Assembly (NCBI GenBank): GCA_007133465.1
Contig: SLMP01000064.1
Coordinates: 1 to 35,024 of the forward strand
DNA from: Nitriliruptoraceae bacterium
GTDB lineage: Bacteria > Actinomycetota > Nitriliruptoria > Nitriliruptorales > Nitriliruptoraceae
DNA: 35,024 nucleotides
Direction of reading: 5' to 3'
Shown here piece after piece: positions 9,780-32,913 of this stretch (positions within the stretch are counted from its first letter, which is position 1; every line of letters starts with the position of its first letter). The position numbers were made by a program, and so were the translations under genes. The notes under the pieces were generated by a model. The model saw nothing but the letters and a program-made list of their open reading frames with translations. It ran no database searches and had not been told where the DNA came from.

Positions 9780-11315
9780 GTGAGATCGCGGTCGATCGGG
9801 TCCGTCGTCTGTGCGGTCTGCGGGTCGCAGACCGTTCGCGCCGCCACGTTCTGCCCGCGCTGCGGGGGGCTGCTCGTCCCAGCGGACGACGGGGCGCCGA
9901 GGCCACGTGACGAGCGACGGCGCCGGTGGTTGCCCGCTGGCGGCACGCTGCTGCTGGTGGCGCTCCTCGTGTCCGTCGCCGCGGCCGGGATGCCACCCGA
10001 CCGGTCCGGTCACGACGGGCTCGCCGCGGCCGACCCGCGCGACCCCGTGACCGTCGACGCCGCCACCGCGAGCTCGGATCCGGCCACCTCGCCCCCGGCC
10101 ACCGCGACATCGGATCCGGCCACCTCGCCCGCGGCCACCGCGACATCGGATCCGGCCACCTCGCCCCCGGCCACCGCGACGTTGCCGGCCACGTGCGTGG
10201 TCGGGACGGAGACGGCGTGCGCTCGACTGGTGCTCCGCGGCGGCCCCCACGTCGCGGCGATCCGGGTCGGGTTCGGCGCGATCGTCGTCGACGAGCATCT
10301 GACGGCGCGGCGCGTCCGCGTCGACCGCGACGAGGCGACGGTGTGGTGGTCCACGTCACTGCGGTCGGCCGCGGACCGCGGCCGCGACGGCCGGGGCCCG
10401 GTCGCGCTGACGAGGTCTGGCGACCTGGCCTTCGTCGGGACGCGCACCGCCCTCCACACCCTCGAGGTGGAGGAGGGGAACCACCGCTGGAGCGTCGCGC
10501 TGCAGCAGGCAGCCGGGGCGGACGACCCGTGGACGGCCTGGCAGGTGGACGACGCGGTGCTGGCATCGGCGGGGAGCACCCTCGTCGCGCTCGACCCGCA
10601 CGACGGGTCCCTGCGGTGGGCGCGGTCGGTCGCCGCCGCGACCGTCGCCGGGCTGAGCGCGGGCGCCGCGGTCCTCGCGCCGGGACGCCTGGACGTCGTC
10701 GGACCCGATGAGCGCGCGCCGGTGTGGCAGCTGGAGGTGCCGGAGGGGGTGGACCAGGTGGCTGGCGGCGATCTCCGGCCGGTGTCGGGACCGCTGGTGC
10801 TGACCGGCTCGCGATCGCTGGTGGTCGACGTCGCGGGCCAGCGGGTGCTGGCCGACCTCGGCCACCGGGCGGTGGCGACCTCGCTCGCGAACGGACACGC
10901 GGTCGCCGTGGTGTGGGAGGACGACGGGGAGGACGCCGTCATGCTCGGGTGGGAGCCATCCGGCGAGCAGCACCTGCGCCAGCCCGGGCCGCCGGTCCCG
11001 TGCTGCGGGGTGACGCTGCGCCCCCTCTACGACGGCCGGGTGCTGCTCCTGGCGCACGCCGACCCGGGCGAGGTGGTGGGCTGGATCGTGGACCCGACCG
11101 ACGGGCGGATCCTGGAGTGGCTGCGGCGGCCACAGGACGTGGCCTGGCGCCCGGTCACCGTGGCCCGCGGCGTCGCGGTCTGGCGGGACGGTCGGGCGCA
11201 CGTCGGGACGGACGCCGCGACCGGGCTGCCCGTGTGGCGGGCACCGGACGACGCGGCGGTCCTCCTGGACGGGCCCGTGCTGCTCGCGACCCGTGACGGG
11301 CTGGTCCGTCCGTGA
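9780..11315 (+). CDS. Zinc-ribbon, membrane anchor, PQQ-like beta-propeller protein
   Basis: About 511 residues. A zinc ribbon lies at residues 12-30 (CAVC and CPRC pairs), followed by a charged linker and one membrane helix (LLLVALLVSVAAAG). A Ser/Asp/Pro/Ala/Thr linker follows, with three copies of a 12-residue repeat at 10074-10181. The rest is a beta-propeller of the PQQ/quinoprotein type, with WSVAL, LDPHDGSLRW, DPTDGRILEW and ATGLPVWRA blades. The frame is open far upstream, but the GTG at 9780 starts just before the zinc ribbon and sits behind a leaderless -10 box. The topology suggests a cytosolic zinc ribbon and an external propeller. It is coupled by a four-base overlap to a methyltransferase. 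The function is unknown. Confidence 0.8.
   Translation: MRSRSIGSVVCAVCGSQTVRAATFCPRCGGLLVPADDGAPRPRDERRRRWLPAGGTLLLVALLVSVAAAGMPPDRSGHDGLAAADPRDPVTVDAATASSDPATSPPATATSDPATSPAATATSDPATSPPATATLPATCVVGTETACARLVLRGGPHVAAIRVGFGAIVVDEHLTARRVRVDRDEATVWWSTSLRSAADRGRDGRGPVALTRSGDLAFVGTRTALHTLEVEEGNHRWSVALQQAAGADDPWTAWQVDDAVLASAGSTLVALDPHDGSLRWARSVAAATVAGLSAGAAVLAPGRLDVVGPDERAPVWQLEVPEGVDQVAGGDLRPVSGPLVLTGSRSLVVDVAGQRVLADLGHRAVATSLANGHAVAVVWEDDGEDAVMLGWEPSGEQHLRQPGPPVPCCGVTLRPLYDGRVLLLAHADPGEVVGWIVDPTDGRILEWLRRPQDVAWRPVTVARGVAVWRDGRAHVGTDAATGLPVWRAPDDAAVLLDGPVLLATRDGLVRP
10074..10181 (+). repeat. Three tandem 36-bp repeats in the linker
   Basis: Units at 10074-10109, 10110-10145 and 10146-10181 are almost identical and encode the linker SDPATSPPATAT three times. 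They lie between the membrane helix and the propeller of the host protein and keep the frame, so copy number can change linker length without harm. Confidence 0.95.
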
Positions 11316-12085
11316 GCCGCAGCGGCGCGCAGGAGGTCGTCACCCCGGACGGCCCACCGGATATCACCCCGGACGGCTCACCGGACATCACCCCGGACGG
11401 CTCACCGGTCGCGGTCTACCGGGCCCTGCCCGCCGAGCCGGGCTTCACCCCGCTGCTGGAGGTCCTGCGACCCCCGGCGAGGGTGCTCGACCTCGGCTGC
11501 GGAGCCGGGCGGCTGGCGAACCTGCTCGCGGCGCACGGCTTCGCGGTCACCGGCGTGGACGCCTCGCCGGCGATGCTCGTGGGCCTGGCCCGGGAGGTCA
11601 GGACCGTCCTGGCACGGATCGAGGAGGTCCGTCTGCGTGAGCGGTTCGACGTCGTGGTCCTGGCCAGCCAGCTGGTGAACGAGCCCGACGTCCGACGCCG
11701 CCGGGCGCTGCTCGCGACGGCGCAGGCGCACGTCGCCGACGACGGGGCGGTGTTCCTCGAACACCTCGATCCGGACCTGCTCGCCGGCCCGCCGGAGCGG
11801 ACCGCGACGGTGGGGTCGGTCGACGTGCGCTTCCGTGTCCTCGCGGTGCGCGGGCAGGAGATCGACGGCGAGGTGCGCTACGGCCTGGACGGCCGGACGT
11901 GGACCCAGCGCTTCACCTCGCTCTTGCTCGACGACGAGGCGCTCGAGCGCGACCTGGCAGCGGTGGGCCTGGTGAGCCGCCGGCGGCTGTCCCCGACCTG
12001 GCTGCAGGCGGGGGCGGCGTCGTCCGGTCCGGCCACGCCGCCCGAACCGAACGCAGGTACCGACCCCAGGAGCCACCCCTCATGA
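11312..12085 (+). CDS. Class I SAM-dependent methyltransferase
   Basis: This protein of 257 residues has motif I VLDLGCGAGRL at about residues 52-62 and the acidic motif II end GVDASPAML at about 73-81. It also has the motif IV region RFDVVVLASQLVNEP, which identifies a Rossmann-fold methyltransferase of the Methyltransf_25/11 type. The N-terminal 32 residues are low-complexity TPDGSPDI repeats encoded by three 24-bp units. The substrate cannot be told. The GTG start overlaps the stop of the propeller gene (GTGA, 11312-11315), and its stop overlaps the start of the flavoprotein gene (ATGA, 12082-12085). The three genes are therefore one translationally coupled unit. Confidence 0.85.
   Translation: MSRSGAQEVVTPDGPPDITPDGSPDITPDGSPVAVYRALPAEPGFTPLLEVLRPPARVLDLGCGAGRLANLLAAHGFAVTGVDASPAMLVGLAREVRTVLARIEEVRLRERFDVVVLASQLVNEPDVRRRRALLATAQAHVADDGAVFLEHLDPDLLAGPPERTATVGSVDVRFRVLAVRGQEIDGEVRYGLDGRTWTQRFTSLLLDDEALERDLAAVGLVSRRRLSPTWLQAGAASSGPATPPEPNAGTDPRSHPS
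11341..11412 (+). repeat. Three tandem 24-bp repeats at the methyltransferase start
   Basis: Units 11341-11364, 11365-11388 and 11389-11412 differ at a few bases and encode TPDGxPDI-like octapeptides. They lie just after the start codon and before the catalytic domain. Confidence 0.9.
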
Positions 12086-16255: not shown

Positions 16256-16321
16256 CGACCGGGCTCACTGCCGGGTGCGAAGATGGAGGGTCGTGGAAAC
16301 CTGGTGCAGGAAGGCGCCTCG

Positions 16322-16633
16322 ATGTTCGTCGCACAGTTCGGCACCGGGCAGGTCTTCTGGTCGTTGCTGTGGTTCTCGCTGTTCTTCCTCTACGTCTACC
16401 TCGCGATCACGATCATCATGGACGTGCTCCGGAGCGGTGACCTGAGCGGCGCGGCCAAGGCCAGCTGGGTCTTCTTCGTCATCATCATGCCCTTCCTCGG
16501 CGTGTTCACCTACCTGGTGGTCCGGGGGACCGCGATGGACGCGAACGGCCGGGTGGAGCACACCAGGGAACAGATCGAGCGCAGCCGGCTGGCGCAGCCG
16601 GGAGGCCACGCCGGGGACGGGAACAGGCCCTGA
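16322..16633 (+). CDS. PLDc_N-type small membrane protein
   Basis: About 103 residues. Two hydrophobic segments, VFWSLLWFSLFFLYVYLAITIIMDVL and SWVFFVIIMPFLGVFTYLVV, flank LRSGDLSGAAKASW. This is the pattern of the phospholipase D N-terminal membrane domain (PLDc_N) that occurs alone in many actinobacteria. A helical polar tail (HTREQIERSRLAQ) follows. The ATG at 16322 has AGGAAGG at 16308-16314, seven bases away; the frame extends further upstream without support. Function is unknown. It lies just before the RDD repeat gene on the same strand. Confidence 0.8.
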   Translation: MFVAQFGTGQVFWSLLWFSLFFLYVYLAITIIMDVLRSGDLSGAAKASWVFFVIIMPFLGVFTYLVVRGTAMDANGRVEHTREQIERSRLAQPGGHAGDGNRP

Positions 16634-16648
16634 GCCGCTCACCGTGGC

Positions 16649-16661: not shown

Positions 16662-18149
16662 ATGAGCGACAACGGCGCAGGCGGTGTCCGCGGGCGCCTC
16701 AGTCATCTGGCCGGTTCGCTGAGCAATCGCGTCCTCGAGGAACTCGACCCGGACGCGGTGGTCGATCGGCTCGACGTCGACGGGTTGATCGCCCGGGTCG
16801 ACGTGAACGGGTTGGTCGCCCGGGTCGACGTCGACGGGTTGGTCGCCCGGGTCGACGTGAACGGGTTGGTCGCCCGGGTCGACGTCGACGGGTTGGTCGC
16901 CCGGGTCGACGTCGACGGGTTGATCGGTCGGGTGGACCTCGACGCGTTGCTGGATCGGGTCGAGGTCGATCGTGTGCTGGCGCGGGCGGACGTCGACGCG
17001 CTCGTCGCTCGGCTCGATGTGGACGGCCTCGTCGCCCGCATCGACGTGGAAGCGCTGCTGGCCCGCGCGGATGCGGACGCCCTGCTGGCCCGGGTGGACG
17101 TGAACGGTCTGCTCGACCGTGTCGACGTGGACCGTCTCCTGCGGCGGGTGGACGTGAACGGTCTGCTCGACCGTGTCGACGTGGACCGTCTCCTGCGGCG
17201 GGTGGATGTGAACGGTCTGCTCGACCGTGTCGACGTCGACCCCCTCCTGGAGCGCGCCGATCTCGACGCGTTGCTCGATCGCGTCGAGGTGCAGCGGTTG
17301 TTCGATCGGATCGACCTGGATCGGGTCGTGGGCCGGTTGGACATCGATGCCGTCGTCGCACGGATCGACCTCGAGCGGGCGATCGAGACGGTCGATCTCG
17401 AGGCGCTGGTTCGGCGGGCGGGGATCCCGGAACTGGTGGCCGAGAGCACCGGTCAGGTCGCGGGATCCGCTCTGGACCTGGGTCGTCGCCAGCTCGTCGG
17501 GCTCGACGTGGGTGTCAGCCGGGTCCTCCAGCGGGTGCTGCGTCGTGACCCCGATGCCCTCCCATCGGGCCCGCCCCAGCTCGTCGCCGACCAGGGTGCG
17601 GCGATCGAGCCGCCGGAGCCGGGGGAGGCCAGGGCCAAGGCACGGGCCGAGGTCAGCGGCTTCTACGCCGGTCCGGTGAGTCGTCTCGTCGCCTTCGCGG
17701 GCGACGTCGCGCTGGCGACGTCGGCGTTCACCCTCATCAGCGCAGCTGCCGCCTGGGTGCTGTCGACCCTTTTCGGGGTCGAGGTGGTCACGATGGACCG
17801 TCGTGCCGCTTCGTGGGCGGCGGGGTTCTTCCTCTGGCTGTTCCTCTACTGGTGGGTGTCGTCCGCCGTCGCCGGTCGCACGCCGATCATGACGCTCGCC
17901 GGCCTGCGGATCGTCGCGCGTGATGGCACGCCACTACGTCCGGGCTTCGCGCTGGCACGGACCGTGCTGCTGCCCGTCAGCCTGCTGTTCTTCGGGCTGG
18001 GGGGCCTCTGGATGGTGGTGGATCGAGAGCGGCGTGGGCTCCACGACCTCGTGGCGCGCTCCACGGTCGTCTACGACTGGGGTGGACGGCCGGCGGAGAT
18101 GCCGACGCCGCTGGCGCGTTGGATCGCCGAGCACGGAGCGGGCACATGA
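16662..18149 (+). CDS. RDD-family membrane protein with 25 nine-residue repeats
   Basis: About 495 residues. Residues 28-252 are 25 uninterrupted nine-residue repeats with consensus [VLI]D[VLI][DN]x[LV][LVI]xR, for example VDVNGLVAR, VDVDGLVAR, VDVDRLLRR. A linker follows (about 253-325), then an RDD domain (about 330-480). The RDD domain begins FYAGPVSRLVAFAGDVALA, has hydrophobic segments TLISAAAAWVLSTLF and AGFFLWLFLYWWVSSAVAG, and shows the typical TLAGLRIVARDGTPLRPGFALAR and RRGLHDLVARSTVV end. The ATG at 16662 is preferred over a GTG at 16644 because of the -10 box between them. The repeat region is acidic/basic amphipathic and soluble, probably cytosolic. The function is unknown. Confidence 0.85.
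   Translation: MSDNGAGGVRGRLSHLAGSLSNRVLEELDPDAVVDRLDVDGLIARVDVNGLVARVDVDGLVARVDVNGLVARVDVDGLVARVDVDGLIGRVDLDALLDRVEVDRVLARADVDALVARLDVDGLVARIDVEALLARADADALLARVDVNGLLDRVDVDRLLRRVDVNGLLDRVDVDRLLRRVDVNGLLDRVDVDPLLERADLDALLDRVEVQRLFDRIDLDRVVGRLDIDAVVARIDLERAIETVDLEALVRRAGIPELVAESTGQVAGSALDLGRRQLVGLDVGVSRVLQRVLRRDPDALPSGPPQLVADQGAAIEPPEPGEARAKARAEVSGFYAGPVSRLVAFAGDVALATSAFTLISAAAAWVLSTLFGVEVVTMDRRAASWAAGFFLWLFLYWWVSSAVAGRTPIMTLAGLRIVARDGTPLRPGFALARTVLLPVSLLFFGLGGLWMVVDRERRGLHDLVARSTVVYDWGGRPAEMPTPLARWIAEHGAGT
16743..17417 (+). repeat. 25 tandem 27-bp repeats in the RDD gene
   Basis: Each 27-bp unit encodes nine residues. Units 3-6 (from 16797) and 14-18 (17094-17228) repeat as nearly identical 54-bp pairs, which shows recent growth by two-unit duplications. 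Outer units are more diverged. Eighteen residues equal five alpha-helical turns, so the 54-bp period may reflect a structural unit. Confidence 0.95.
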
Positions 18150-18181: not shown

Positions 18182-19927
18182 ATGGGTCCAGTGGATCTCG
18201 AGGGATCCGGACCGACCAAGGCTGAAGCAGACGCCGGTGGGTCGACCGGTCGTTCGCCCGGGGAGCTCGAGCGTGAGGTCCAGCGTCTGCGAGCGCGGGT
18301 CGCGGCGCTGCAGCAGCAGCCACCTGCGCGTCACCGGGTCCGTCAGATGATCGGGGCGGTCCTGGCCGTGCTCACGGTCGTCTCCGTGATCGCGAGCACG
18401 GTGGCGGTGTGGCAGACCCGCACGGCCTTTGCAACCGATCGGTTCATGACCCTGGTGCAACCGGTGCTTGCATCTCCAGACGTCTACGACGCGATCAGCA
18501 TCCGTCTCACCGACGAGACCCTCGAGGTGCTGGCGCTGGAGGACCGCGTCGAGGCCGCGCTCGGCGAGCTCGGCCAGACGCTCCGCGACGAGCTCGCCCA
18601 GGCGCTCGGGGTGACGGAGGCGCAGCGGGCTCGGATCCAGCTGCTCCCGATCCCGCAGCTGCAGGATCTCGCGGCGCCCATCGCGGGCGGTCTCGAAGCG
18701 CGTGTCGCCGCGCGGATCGACCGGTTCGTGACCTCACCGGAGTTCGAGCGGCTGCTCGTCGAGGGCACCGAGGTCGCGCACACCAAGGCGGTGGCGTTGC
18801 TCCGCGGGGACGAGGCCGCGCTCCCGAACCTCGAGGTGGCAACGGGCGAGGTCCGGCTCAACCTGGTCCCCGTCGTCGGGCGCGTCCTCGAGGACCTCGT
18901 GGACGAGGGGCTCGCCGTGTTGGGCATCGAAGAGATCCCGTTCCTCGACCCCTTCGCTGACCCACAGCTCTCGCTCGACCGGCTGTCGTCAGCCCTCGGG
19001 ACCGAGCTGCCGCCCGACTTCGGTCAGCTGACGGTCATGTCGGAGGCCGAGCTGGAGGAACTGCAGACCGTCGCGCGACGCTTGGATCAGCTCGTGTGGG
19101 TCCTGCTGGTGCTCTCGATCGTGCTGCTGGTGGCGACCCTGGCGGTGGCACCACGACGCCGGCGCATGCTCGCGCAGGTCGGCCTGGGGGCCGCTGCGGG
19201 CACCGCGCTCACCATGCTGCTCGTGCGCAGCACAGAGGACGACATCGTTGACACCGCGGTCACGGTGCCCGGTCGCCGTGCGGTCGCGATGCTCGCCGAG
19301 GCCACGTTCGACTCTCTGCGCAGCGTGATGGTCGTCGTGGTCGTCGTGGCCCTGTTGGTCGCGCTCGTGGCGCACCTCGCCGGACGCCCGGCCTGGCTGA
19401 CCGCGTCGATCGCCAGGGTCCGTCGGGTGACGGCTGCCCGCGCGGCCGACGACCAGGACGCCGACGATCGGCATCGTGATCGATCAGGGTTCTCACCCCT
19501 CGGGGGTGATGGCCTGGCGTCGGTTTCGCAGCACCATCGCGCATCGTGCGGCGCCACGTGTGGAGGGCCGCTCCCGAGAGAGGATGCTGAGATGAATGAT
19601 GCAGGGATGCTGCTCGAGACCCTGGGCGAGATGACCGCCGTGTCGCTCGAGCGGACCGACCTGGACGCCCGGGAACTGATGTTGGTCCGGGTTGCGGCGC
19701 TCGCCGCCGTCGATGCGCCTGCGGCCTCGTACCTGCTGAACCTCGGTGCGGCGGTCGAGGCGGGCCTGACCCTGGAAGACGCGCAGGGCATCCTGATCGC
19801 CATCGCGCCCATCATCGGCACGCCACGGTCCGTCGTGGCGGCGACGAACCTGGCGGACGCACTCGGTTTCGCGCTCCTGGAGATCGAGCTCGCGATCGAG
19901 GAAGCCCTGGAGGAGGACGAGGGCTAA
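18182..19927 (+). CDS. Large membrane protein, open frame continues into a CMD-like domain
   Basis: The frame runs 581 codons without a stop. The first part (about residues 1-430) starts with a polar coiled-coil stretch (GELEREVQRLRARVAALQQQ). It has a membrane helix (about 58-78), then about 240 residues outside (TDRFMTLVQPVLASPDVYDAI onwards). Three more helices follow (LVWVLLVLSIVLLVATLAV, GAAAGTALTMLLV, VVVVVALLVALVAHL). This matches a conserved actinobacterial membrane protein of unknown function. Residues 432-470 are a linker with rare codons for this genome (CGA, TCA, AGA, TGT, GGA) that spans a hairpin. The last 111 residues look like a separate protein starting at 19592. Either the stop has been lost or shifted, or the two are fused. 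GAGGAG lies six bases before the ATG. Confidence 0.75.
   Translation: MGPVDLEGSGPTKAEADAGGSTGRSPGELEREVQRLRARVAALQQQPPARHRVRQMIGAVLAVLTVVSVIASTVAVWQTRTAFATDRFMTLVQPVLASPDVYDAISIRLTDETLEVLALEDRVEAALGELGQTLRDELAQALGVTEAQRARIQLLPIPQLQDLAAPIAGGLEARVAARIDRFVTSPEFERLLVEGTEVAHTKAVALLRGDEAALPNLEVATGEVRLNLVPVVGRVLEDLVDEGLAVLGIEEIPFLDPFADPQLSLDRLSSALGTELPPDFGQLTVMSEAELEELQTVARRLDQLVWVLLVLSIVLLVATLAVAPRRRRMLAQVGLGAAAGTALTMLLVRSTEDDIVDTAVTVPGRRAVAMLAEATFDSLRSVMVVVVVVALLVALVAHLAGRPAWLTASIARVRRVTAARAADDQDADDRHRDRSGFSPLGGDGLASVSQHHRASCGATCGGPLPREDAEMNDAGMLLETLGEMTAVSLERTDLDARELMLVRVAALAAVDAPAASYLLNLGAAVEAGLTLEDAQGILIAIAPIIGTPRSVVAATNLADALGFALLEIELAIEEALEEDEG
19493..19509 (+). terminator. Hairpin between the two parts of the fused frame
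   Basis: TCACCCC and GGGGTGA form a perfect seven-base stem with a three-base loop. There is no T-run, so it would be a weak terminator. Its position between two protein-coding parts fits an intergenic spacer. Confidence 0.4.
19592..19927 (+). CDS. CMD-like small protein, alternative separate start
   Basis: From the ATG at 19592, with GAGAGG at 19578-19583, a 111-residue helical protein is encoded. It reads LGEMTAVSLERTDLDARELMLVRVAALAAVDAPAASYLLNL, then TLEDAQGILIAIAPIIGTPR and an acidic C-terminus. Spacing and helices resemble the carboxymuconolactone decarboxylase/AhpD-like family, but no CxxC or catalytic Cys is present, so any enzyme role is doubtful. It lies in the same frame as the upstream membrane protein. 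A ribosome site and the change in codon use suggest it is a gene of its own. Confidence 0.6.
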   Translation: MNDAGMLLETLGEMTAVSLERTDLDARELMLVRVAALAAVDAPAASYLLNLGAAVEAGLTLEDAQGILIAIAPIIGTPRSVVAATNLADALGFALLEIELAIEEALEEDEG

Positions 19928-21132: not shown

Positions 21133-22390
21133 TCAGTCGCCGGGGCGTCGCGAGCCAGGCGGGCAACTCGTCCGTGTGCTCCCCGAGCCCGGGCGGCGGG
21201 TAGCGGTAGGTCGGGGGCTGTCGGAGAGCGTGATCGGGTTGCGGATCGAGGGAACCGCCGCGTCGCCGTCACCCGCCTCGATGACCGGGTGGAGCCCGAC
21301 CGATGCCGCGAACGCCACACCCTCGCGCACGGTGTTGACCGGCCCGCCGGGCAGCCCGTTGGCGCGGAGCAGATCGAACCACTCCGCGGTCGTCCGTGTC
21401 GCGAGCGCCTCGAGCAGCAGCGTCAAGAGGGCTGCACGCTGGGCGGTGCGGTCCTCATTGGTGGCGAACCGCTCGTCCCGCGCGACCCCCAGGAGGCCGA
21501 GCACCTCGCACAGCTCGGCGAACTGCCTGTCGTTGCCCGCGATCACGAGGATCTCCCCGTCGGCCGTCGGCAGCGGCTCGTAGGGGAACAGGCTCGGGTG
21601 GGCGTTGCCCATCCGGAACGGCGTGACGTCGGAGGCGACGACCGCGCTGGTGTGGTTGACCAGCCCGGACAGCGTCGACGACAGCAGGTCGACCTCGATC
21701 CGCTGACCCACGCCGGTCTCGTGCCGGCGGTTGAGGGCGGCGAGTATGCCGACGGTCGCGTGCAGGCCGGCCAGGACGTCGCAGACGGGCATGCCCGCGC
21801 GGTAGGCGGGACCGTCGGGGTCGCCGGTGAGGCTCATCAGCCCGGAGATGCCCTGGACCATCAGGTCGTACCCGGCGAGGCTGGCGGCCTGCTCCGTGGT
21901 CCCGAACCCGGAGATGGACGCGTAGCCGATACCCGGGTTGCCGGCGCGGACCGTGTCGTGGTCGAGGCCGAAGCGCAGCATCCCGCCCGGACGCATGTTC
22001 TCGATCAGGACGTCGGCGCGTGCGGCCAGCTCGTGGGCGAGCGCGAGGTCGTCCTCGTCCGTGAGGGCCAGCACGATCGACCGCTTGTTACGGTTTGATA
22101 CCGAGGTAGTACGTCGAGATGCCGTCCCGGACCGGCGGCATCCAGGTCCGGGTGTCGTCCCCGGACGGGCCCTCGACCTTCACCACCTCCGCACCGAGGT
22201 CGGCGAGCAGCATCGTCGCGTACGGGCCGGCCAGGATGCGCGAGAAGTCCGCGACGAGGATCCCGTCGAGCGGTCCGGCGGGGATGGACCGTTGCGGTCC
22301 GGCGGGGGTGGACCGTTGCGGTCCGGCGGGGGTGGACCGTTGTGGTCCGGCGGGGGTGGACCGTTGTGGTCCGGCGGGAGGAGCAACCAC
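21133..22390 (-). pseudogene. Frameshifted class III (CaiB/BaiF) CoA-transferase
   Basis: Two frames together encode a nearly complete class III CoA-transferase. The first part (22390 to about 22088) has [29 protein letters not shown], the family N-terminus, and stops after YYLGIKP. The second, to 21133, continues DLIENMRPGG-like (LIENMRPGGML), GYASISGFG, AGYDLMVQGISGLMSLTG and ends with NPITLSDSP. One extra A in a run of three near 22090 causes the first shift (GINRNKRS expected). A missing C in a run near 21210 changes the C-terminus (PTYRYPPPGLGEHTDE is read in another frame). The enzyme would move CoA between carboxylic acids. Both lesions are in homopolymers, so a sequencing error is a real alternative to decay. 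Confidence 0.8.
22272..22378 (-). repeat. Four tandem 24-bp repeats at the CoA-transferase N-terminus
   Basis: Units 22272-22295, 22296-22319, 22320-22343 and 22344-22367, plus an 11-base partial unit, encode PAGPQRST octapeptides in front of the first conserved strand. The family has no such extension. Confidence 0.95.
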
Positions 22391-24469: not shown

Positions 24470-24715
24470 CGGTCGTGCCCGCCCTGTCGGTGGGCCGGGG
24501 CGGGGACGACCCGGACCGGTGGGCGGAGCGGATCGAGGCCGGCCGGGCCGCGCCGGACCACCTCGCCGCCACCTCGACGCCCGTGCTCGTGCTCGGTGGC
24601 TGGGTGGCTGGGTGGCTGGGCGCGACGCTTGGCGCGACGCTTGGCGCGACGCTTGGCGCGACGCTTGGCGCGACGCCGGACCGACCGGCTGGTCGCGTCA
24701 GGTCAGGTCAGGTCC
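24470..24715 (+). repeat. Repeat-rich gap: 8-, 12- and 5-bp tandem repeats
   Basis: After the DUF2277 stop a GTG overlaps it (24466), and its frame reads about 45 plausible codons (DPDRWAERIEAGRAAPDHLA) before meeting repeats; no known family is recognised. Then come three 8-bp GGTGGCTG units (24595-24618), four and a part 12-bp GGCGCGACGCTT units (24619-24677) and a TCAGG repeat (about 24698-24712). The last overlaps the stop of the convergent permease gene. Confidence 0.75.
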
Positions 24716-28387: not shown

Positions 28388-28960
28388 GTGAACGCCCCCA
28401 CCTCGTCGAGCACCGTGCAGTTCGAACGGCGTCGGACCGTCTGGGACATCGTCTTCGGGCTGCTCTCCGTCGTCGCCGGTGTGATCGCCCTCGGCCACGT
28501 CGCGATCGCGAGCCTCGTCTCCGTGCTGTTCCTCGGCTGGATGCTGATCTTCGGTGGCCTGGTCCTGATCGCGGCCGCCATCCTCCTCTGGAAGGAGGCG
28601 AACCACCGCTGGGACCTCGCCGCGGGGGCACTGTTCCTGATCATCGGGTTCGCGTTCGTCCGCAACCCCGGCGTCGGGCTGTTGACGCTCACGCTCGTGG
28701 CCGGCTCACTGCTCCTGGTCGGCGGCGTCGTGCGGATCGTCGCAGCGTTCCAGCCGGGTGCGCCCCGTGTCATCCTGCTGCTCAACGGTGGGGTGACGCT
28801 GCTGCTCGGCCTCATGGTGCTGAACCGCTGGCCCGTGTCGGCGCTGTGGTTCCTCGGCACGATCCTGGGCATCCAGTTGATCCTCGACGGCATCACCACG
28901 GCGCTCGTCGGTCGTGTTCGGGTCGTCGACGCCCCCGAGCGGACGAACGAGTCCGTCTGA
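28388..28960 (+). CDS. HdeD-family membrane protein (DUF308)
   Basis: About 190 residues with six membrane segments in three hairpins, each with the short-loop pattern of DUF308: LLSVVAGVIALGHVAIASL, MLIFGGLVLIAAAILLW, AGALFLIIGFAFVRNPGVGLL, LTLVAGSLLLVGGVVRI, LLLNGGVTLLLGLMVLNRWP and FLGTILGIQLILDGI. HdeD is an acid-stress membrane protein in enteric bacteria, but its biochemical role is unknown. The GTG at 28388 has GGAAGG eight bases upstream. The frame extends to 28286 without support. Confidence 0.87.
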   Translation: MNAPTSSSTVQFERRRTVWDIVFGLLSVVAGVIALGHVAIASLVSVLFLGWMLIFGGLVLIAAAILLWKEANHRWDLAAGALFLIIGFAFVRNPGVGLLTLTLVAGSLLLVGGVVRIVAAFQPGAPRVILLLNGGVTLLLGLMVLNRWPVSALWFLGTILGIQLILDGITTALVGRVRVVDAPERTNESV

Positions 28961-29000
28961 CCGCTGGTCGCGATCACCCTGACCGCTGGTCGCGATCACC
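28957..29000 (+). repeat. Tandem 22-bp duplication across a stop codon
   Basis: The unit beginning CTGACCGCTGGTCGCGATCA occurs at 28957-28978 and 28979-29000. The first copy contains the TGA stop of the HdeD-like gene, as in the repeat at 12632-12676. Confidence 0.95.
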
Positions 29001-29060
29001 CGAGCGGCGGTGGGAAGCAGCCGCCGCGCGTGAGCGGGCGTCGTCGTCGATCACGGCACC

Positions 29061-31718: not shown

Positions 31719-32129
31719 ATGACGACGGGGGATGGCCGATCCGCCGAGGGTCTGCTCGGCCCGCTCGAGTACGACGTGGTCAGGGCGCTGTGGGCCGAGG
31801 GCGCCGCCGGCGTCCCGGCCGTGCTCGACCGGGTCAACGCCGGACGCGGGGCCGGGAAGCCGCCGCTCGCCTACACCACGGTCATGACGGTGCTCACGCG
31901 GTTGCACGACAAGGGGCTGCTGGAGCGCGAGCGCCGCGGTCGCGGGTACGAGTACCGGCCGCGGTTCACCGAGGGAGAGCTGGTCGAGCACCTCAGTCGC
32001 CAGGCGGTCGGTGACCTCCTCGCGCGCTATGGAGACGTGGCACTGGCGCAGTTCGCCGCTGCGATCGACGCCGCGGACCCCGCGCTGTTGCGCAGGATCC
32101 GCGAGCTCGCGGGGACCGATGATGCGTGA
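31719..32129 (+). CDS. BlaI/MecI/CopY-family repressor
   Basis: This protein of 136 residues has the winged helix LGPLEYDVVRALWAEGAAGV, with YTTVMTVLTRLHDKGLLERERRGRGYEY as recognition helix and wing, which is the BlaI/MecI signature. The C-terminal helices (HLSRQAVGDLLARYGDVALAQF) form the dimer domain that is cut by the partner protease in known systems. GGGAGG lies four bases before the ATG. It is coupled to an M56-like peptidase, as in BlaI/BlaR-type pairs, but no beta-lactamase is next to it, and the target genes may lie elsewhere. Confidence 0.92.
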   Translation: MTTGDGRSAEGLLGPLEYDVVRALWAEGAAGVPAVLDRVNAGRGAGKPPLAYTTVMTVLTRLHDKGLLERERRGRGYEYRPRFTEGELVEHLSRQAVGDLLARYGDVALAQFAAAIDAADPALLRRIRELAGTDDA

Positions 32130-32177
32130 CTCGCGGGGGCCGATGATGCGTGACTCGCGGGGACCCATGATGCGTGA
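32106..32177 (+). repeat. Three tandem 24-bp repeats at the blaI stop and M56 start
   Basis: Units 32106-32129, 32130-32153 and 32154-32177 each contain ATGATGCGTGA. The first holds the blaI-like stop; all three offer an in-frame start for the peptidase gene. Each adds GPMMRDSR to its N-terminus. Confidence 0.95.
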
Positions 32178-32913
32178 CCGGTGGGCTTGGGTGAGCTTCG
32201 CGATCGGCCTGACGCTCATCTGTGCGATCGGTGTCGCGTCAGGGCACCACCACGCCGCTGCTGGTCTGCTCGTCGCGCTGCTGCTCGGTGGCGTGCTGAC
32301 GGCGCTGGTGATGCGTGCGTGCCGGCATCGCCGGCTCGTCGCCGGCCTACGGCAACGCTCGGAGCCGACCGTGCTCGCCGGTCTGCCCGTGCGAGCGGGC
32401 GACCTCGGGGACGCCGCCTTCGTCGCCGGCCTCGGCCGTCCGACGATCTTCTGCGATCGTCGGCTGCCCGACCAGTTGTCTCCCGCGCAGCTCCGGGCGG
32501 TGCTGCTCCACGAGCACGCGCACCAGCGCGCCCTCGATCCCGCCCGGTTGCTGGTCATCGACCTCGTGACGCCGCTGCTGCGGCGGGTGCCGCTCGGCCG
32601 TCGTTGGCTGGCGATCGCGATCGCCCGTCGTGAGATCGCCGCCGATCGGCAGGCGATCGCGCAGGGCGCCACACCGTCGGACCTCGCTGCCGCCCTCCTC
32701 GTCCTCCCGCCGCTGACCCACGAGCACGTCGCGGGCTTCACCCCGGCGGTCGAGCTCCGGCTCCGTGCGCTGCTCGGCGACCTCGACGACCTCCCAGCCC
32801 CAGCGTCGGTCCGTCGGGGAGCGATGCTCCTGGCGGGCTCGACGCTCGGTGCAGGTGTGTGCGCCTGGTTGCTCCACCCGTTCCTGGCGAACGCGTTCGT
32901 GCTGCTCTGCTGA
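32119..32913 (+). CDS. M56-family (BlaR1-like) membrane metallopeptidase
   Basis: About 264 residues from the first ATG, or 247 from the last of three repeated start regions. Two membrane helices (WVSFAIGLTLICAIGVASG, AAAGLLVALLLGGVLTALVM) are followed by the zinc site LLHEHAHQRALDP (HExxH). ARREIAADRQAIAQG supplies the third ligand region, and one more helix (GAMLLAGSTLGAGVCAWLL) ends it. There is no penicillin-binding sensor domain, so it is a short M56 protease that probably cleaves the BlaI-like repressor in response to another signal. It overlaps the blaI-like stop by 11 bases. Confidence 0.87.
   Translation: MMRDSRGPMMRDSRGPMMRDRWAWVSFAIGLTLICAIGVASGHHHAAAGLLVALLLGGVLTALVMRACRHRRLVAGLRQRSEPTVLAGLPVRAGDLGDAAFVAGLGRPTIFCDRRLPDQLSPAQLRAVLLHEHAHQRALDPARLLVIDLVTPLLRRVPLGRRWLAIAIARREIAADRQAIAQGATPSDLAAALLVLPPLTHEHVAGFTPAVELRLRALLGDLDDLPAPASVRRGAMLLAGSTLGAGVCAWLLHPFLANAFVLLC

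Follow-up and report, generated by a model that had tools for sequence, protein, structure and literature searches.

A gene of a Nitriliruptoraceae bacterium (Actinomycetota) encodes a membrane protein in which a long array of nine-residue repeats precedes an RDD domain, and the question is what such an array is and what it does next to this domain. The open reading frame runs from an ATG at position 16662 of the window (the whole 35,024-nt stretch of contig SLMP01000064.1 that was analysed) to a stop codon at 18147-18149 and encodes 495 amino acids; an in-frame GTG lies upstream of the ATG, at 16644. The parts of the gene are listed in Table 1.

Table 1. Parts of the repeat-RDD gene, in window coordinates
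Feature	Coordinates	Strand	Basis or remark
Whole gene: repeat domain, cap, linker and RDD membrane domain	16662..18149	+	ORF, 495 aa
N-terminal leader, residues 1-27	16662..16742	+	Hydropathy: no stretch of transmembrane strength
25 nine-residue units in unbroken phase, residues 28-252	16743..17417	+	Consensus [VLI]-D-[VLI]-[DN]-x-L-[LVI]-x-R; 7-residue helix and 2-residue turn predicted for each
Units 3-6: two identical 54-bp blocks, recent tandem duplication	16797..16904	+	DNA identity
Units 14-18: two identical 54-bp blocks and a unit one base off, second recent duplication	17094..17228	+	DNA comparison, TRF
Conserved C-terminal cap, residues 253-300	17418..17561	+	Common to fused and split homologues
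Pro/Ala/Glu-rich linker, residues 301-334	17562..17663	+	
RDD domain (PF06271), residues 335-465	17664..18056	+	Pfam match

As originally predicted, the array consists of 25 consecutive nine-residue units with no break of phase. The motif [VLI]D[VLI][DN]x[LV][LVI]xR, proposed for all of them, fits exactly in only 16; the other nine hold the phase and deviate by one to a few changes each (A at position 1; E for D at 2; P or A at 3; E or Q at 4; A at 6; F at 7; T at 9). Among 5000 shuffled versions of the array, none had more than two motif matches and none had two in one phase, against the 16 matches observed. The cap opens with a 26th, diverged unit, AGIPELVAE (residues 253-261), and continues as STG-x-x-A-x-x-x-LD-x-x-RRQ-x-VGLD...RxxxRxxRRD. 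Two long antisense ORFs (220 and 248 aa) span the array on the minus strand at 16699-17449; antisense matches occur in homologues too, and the absence of stop codons from the repeat most likely accounts for these ORFs. No noncoding RNA or tRNA was found in the window.

The RDD domain that had been recognized in the C-terminal half was confirmed by a match to PF06271 (E 1e-15; 58.7 bits, with a cut-off of 24.1). R341, D348 and D462 are invariant in 16 of the 16 aligned relatives of the subgroup and supply the one Arg and two Asp that define RDD domains. Kyte-Doolittle hydropathy, the sole basis for these segments, delineates three hydrophobic stretches (residues 341-378, 385-405 and 427-455), which fits the approximately three transmembrane segments expected of RDD proteins, and the first conserved Asp, D348, lies within the first of them, also as expected of the family. 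No other RDD gene was found in the draft genome (89% complete).

RDD proteins are known from bacteria, archaea and eukaryotes, with disagreement about their role. The RDD protein of Halobacillus andaensis is described as a Na+(Li+,K+)/H+ antiporter (PMC5996927), and SppI of Bacillus subtilis inhibits the protease SppA, its deletion leaving salt and alkaline resistance unchanged (PMC7568657), whereas an analysis published in eLife terms the role of RDD unknown and proposes a conserved site within the membrane that faces the cytoplasm (PMC12419801). With the former two proteins, the present one shares the significant Pfam match, the invariant R341, D348 and D462 and the three hydrophobic segments; however, the papers on them (PMC5996927; PMC7568657) describe no such repeat, and neither antiport nor SppA inhibition is transferable to it. 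By analogy with what is on record or proposed for relatives, cation/H+ antiport, protease control and lipid-linked ligand binding are candidate roles of the module. Fusion of RDD to another domain is also known from VanZ-RDD proteins (PMC12419801), but VanZ is a membrane-embedded Lipocone domain, whereas the partner here is a soluble-looking repeat array.

With the whole protein as query, homologues were found in the same family, in the same class and throughout the phylum Actinomycetota, two named ones coming from the Acidimicrobiia MAGs MO_207.B6 and MO_197.B6. The only genome-wide scan reaching beyond Actinomycetota used exact peptide patterns of this protein and returned just two Acidimicrobiia. 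Every homologue keeps a single nine-residue phase, with 4 to 21 recognized units, so that the present protein, with 25, has the most. The cap, in which an E-S-T-G-like motif is followed by LDxxRRQxVGLD, joins the last unit directly in most homologues, with 8-35 residues intervening in several split forms (see below). No match to the repeat protein was found in phages, plasmids or viral contigs, and a phage or plasmid origin was rejected for this reason.

A profile search across Actinomycetota had been suggested along with the original prediction. We ran a profile of the repeats and cap only, without the RDD domain, over 397 Actinomycetota genomes; it matched 26 of them, at 27 loci encoding proteins with 4 to 25 units. 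At all 27 loci, as well as at L004 and L005, an RDD domain is either fused to the array or encoded directly downstream on the same strand. Most of the matched genomes were already known from an earlier query that contained the RDD domain, and the six missed by that query (G184, G332, G333, G354, G360 and G393) follow the same rule. Because RDD is fused or adjacent at every matched locus, the repeat with its cap is, judging from the genomes searched, a dedicated partner of one RDD subgroup across Actinomycetota. The RDD half of the protein is ordinary; the repeat half appears to be an undescribed, widespread partner repeat of RDD proteins.

Fused array-RDD proteins are encoded by many Acidimicrobiia and a few other lineages. 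In the split form, the array protein stops shortly past the cap and the RDD gene comes next on the same strand; 13 of the 18 split pairs overlap by exactly 4 nt (ATGA or GTGA), two others may overlap by 8 bases, and the stop/start overlap falls at the place that the linker occupies in the fused protein. On the RDD tree, the fused or split label requires four changes (bootstrap range 3-5), with supported branches forcing only one. The split repeat proteins of L067, L071, L072, L076 and L077 carry an Ala-rich, partly hydrophobic N-terminal region of roughly 80-150 residues that is absent from the fused protein described here; one of them has a sub-threshold match to the Senescence domain.

In 20 homologous regions, together with L004 and L005, no neighbour other than the RDD gene is conserved, and inference of function from the neighbourhood was therefore rejected. 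Molybdopterin oxidoreductase-like (formate dehydrogenase-like) or FdhD-like genes, judged by eye, lie near four loci from three families (L064, L066, L072 and L073), too few to build on, and this could be chance. In the window, the product of the gene directly upstream (16283-16630) is a small membrane protein bearing a PLDc_N domain (phospholipase D-nuclease N-terminal); this gene is not conserved beside homologues. The next gene downstream (18182-19924) codes for a membrane protein. Relatives of its N-terminal part lie near the repeat-RDD loci L059, L063 and L070, where distance and orientation vary; the C-terminus of the protein shows a sub-threshold match to carboxymuconolactone decarboxylase and may be a separate fused module, beginning near MNDAGM.

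Neither of the two outcomes that had been named in advance as speaking against the original prediction, a match of the repeats to a named family or their absence from all relatives, was observed: in Pfam and NCBIfam, nothing scored above threshold for the array, alone or via the split homologues, and the repeat is not described in the open-access literature searched. The suggestion that a D-x-[DN]-G core binds a divalent cation in the manner of RTX repeats was not supported. The core is largely specific to this protein: it is found in 10 of the 25 units, and among the 279 units of 26 homologues Gly occupies position 5 in just 15, the position being dominated by Ala, Arg and Glu. There is no Pfam match to RTX at E<=1, the array consensus does not conform to GGxGxDxUx, neither the GGxGxD motif nor a secretion context was seen, and EF-hand_7 scored 19 bits, below its gathering score of 30. 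RTX or EF-hand calcium binding is considered unlikely, as the motif is not conserved and no match is significant. The likeness to RTX nonapeptides extends to the nine-residue length and the abundance of Asp; RTX repeats, however, are Gly-rich, type I-secreted and Ca2+-binding (PMC3034196), whereas the array here lacks the Gly-rich motif and the secretion context.

The pairs of units that had been read as 54-bp blocks are indeed such blocks: units 3-4 and 5-6, and likewise 14-15 and 16-17, are identical in DNA, as also reported by TRF, and unit 18 differs by one base from units 14 and 16. Two recent in-frame duplications have thus occurred within the array of this gene copy. Other near-perfect short tandem repeats in the window, at 10062-10180, 11340-11408, 22270-22378, 24615-24676, 28957-29001 and 32106-32178 (periods 36, 24, 24, 12, 22 and 24, respectively), indicate that the genome seems rich in young tandem duplications. 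The array could be a functionless by-product of DNA slippage, to which the two 54-bp duplications and the range of 4-25 units among proteins would conform. Against this, the phase, the hydrophobic positions, D2 and R9 are kept in the 279 homologous units phylum-wide, the repeat is strictly paired with RDD, and three species of the same genus have equal numbers of recognized units, with differences between their repeat blocks falling mostly at third codon positions (27 of 46, 43 of 77 and 42 of 68). Because of this third-position bias, the array is judged to be under protein-level constraint, and we regard the slippage explanation as very improbable.

For the shape of the array, the original prediction had offered an extended amphipathic helix or a solenoid, and only the latter gained support. 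A single long continuous helix would draw on the coincidence of 18 residues with five helical turns. Such a helix is not amphipathic, because its hydrophobic face is rotated by 180 degrees with every nine residues: the hydrophobic moment at 100 degrees per residue is only 0.06-0.09, whether computed over 18, 36 or all residues, with hydrophobic positions all round the helix. Given, in addition, the prolines within units and the break at every unit in the AlphaFold2 (AF2) models, a continuous helix is hardly credible. Taken as a short helix, each unit is amphipathic through the hydrophobic positions 1, 3, 6 and 7 (moment 0.65 for residues 3-10 of the unit). In the 279 homologous units, Pro occurs at positions 2-5 only; the pattern by which units are recognized bars Pro at positions 1, 6 and 7, and the free tests are positions 5, 8 and 9, with 5, 0 and 0 prolines. 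From the sequences, this placement fits a helix that begins at position 3, with Asp 2 as its N-cap.

The structure prediction that had been proposed gave a mixed outcome, with short helices at moderate confidence for units 11-25 and the cap, and strands in units 1-7 from the single sequence. With a four-row alignment from the window and L004/L005 and a query of units 11-25 plus the cap, which does not contain units 1-7, AF2 returned a 7-residue helix followed by a 2-residue turn in nearly every unit, with pLDDT of 72-82 in the better part; overall, mean pLDDT was 58.4 and pTM 0.45, with the cap below 50 and poor packing. The single-sequence model of the whole protein (pLDDT 49.8, too poor to use) has strands in units 1-7, with pLDDT up to about 71, and agrees with the helix-turn pattern in the second half. 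These strands, together with a hydrophobic moment that is also high at 160 degrees (0.55) and the weak EF-hand_7 match noted above, are what a beta-solenoid with nine residues per strand or turn, RTX-like or other and possibly metal-stabilized, would call for. However, the four-row model is helical throughout the units it covers, Pro is tolerated at positions 2-5 only, Gly at position 5 is not conserved, and the array is rich in Ala, Leu, Arg and Glu, so that a beta-solenoid is improbable.

The preferred fold, a solenoid-like stack of short helices, would resemble alpha-solenoids (ARM/HEAT, TPR, PPR, ankyrin) in its tandem helical units, which are predicted to pack side by side into an elongated body, though with a geometry of low confidence. 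The units of alpha-solenoids comprise about 31-42 residues and two or three helices (PMC11514114); one 7-residue helix per nine residues, as predicted for the array, would be shorter than any alpha-solenoid unit known to us. From ARM/HEAT, TPR and PPR, with their helical hairpins of about 30-40 residues, the array further differs in its period of 9 with one predicted helix per unit, and it matches nothing in Pfam or, by sequence or Foldseek, in PDB. The short helices of mesothelin are stacked too, but as irregular ARM/HEAT (PMC10035497). Foldseek of the AF2 model found no PDB match at E<=10, only meaningless viral matches, a negative weakened by the low confidence of the model, and sequence search of PDB gave nothing above noise. 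The only PDB sequence match of the repeat profile, 9e5c chain 0q (9e5c_0q; E 0.004), is a strongly biased low-complexity repeat protein that bears the name LIM zinc-binding domain-containing. Its EATEVAEAVEALNATETV-like repeats have what looks like a period of 18 (2 x 9), but this match probably reflects composition.

On which side of the membrane would the array lie? Residues 1-330 contain no hydrophobic stretch of transmembrane strength (maximum KD19 0.99), none precedes residue 341, and no signal peptide was seen by inspection. Hydropathy and inspection of the N-terminus thus place the array most probably in the cytoplasm, at the inner face of the membrane. Alternatively, it might lie in the membrane itself, its short amphipathic unit helices inserted into the inner leaflet beside RDD to sense or shape the membrane, in analogy to the 11-residue repeats of apolipoproteins or synucleins. 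The amphipathicity of the unit helix (moment 0.65), the tethering of the array to a membrane protein and the hydrophobic N-terminal stretches of some split homologues, along with the weak Senescence match, would agree with this. The arrays, however, are net negative in every homologue, at about -1 per unit; Trp, Tyr and Cys are absent from the 2403 pooled array residues, among which Phe occurs twice and Lys six times, the opposite of helices that usually bind anionic membranes. A membrane-lying array thus appears unlikely. The continuous amphipathic helix that apolipoprotein- and synuclein-type repeats form over many repeats is not seen here (moment of 0.06-0.09 at 100 degrees).

We consider it reasonably probable that the array is a length-variable cytoplasmic rod of short helices, the dedicated partner of an RDD subgroup, that positions, scaffolds or regulates the RDD module. 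In the predicted unit, Asp at position 2 would start the 7-residue helix as its N-cap and Arg at position 9 would close it; with the aliphatic residues at positions 1, 3, 6 and 7 as packing contacts, the short helices would form a solenoid-like rod in the cytoplasm, next to the inner face of the membrane. Such a rod could act as a scaffold of adjustable length, which would hold the RDD module in place, regulate it or bring partner proteins to it, and in-frame duplication, by altering the number of units, would set its length without breaking the fold. Scaffolding is the role assumed by default for repeat arrays and is suggested here by analogy. More tentatively, the array might represent an undescribed repeat fold in which every nine-residue unit holds one 7-residue helix and which is an obligate cytoplasmic partner of RDD across Actinomycetota, with its length tuned by the number of units.

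A partner domain that is either fused to RDD or translationally coupled with it, and that is a soluble-looking protein, provides a handle on the disputed role of the RDD family. Should the predicted fold be correct, a unit of nine residues would be unusually small among alpha-helical solenoids and would interest both the design of repeat proteins and the study of how arrays grow by in-frame duplication.
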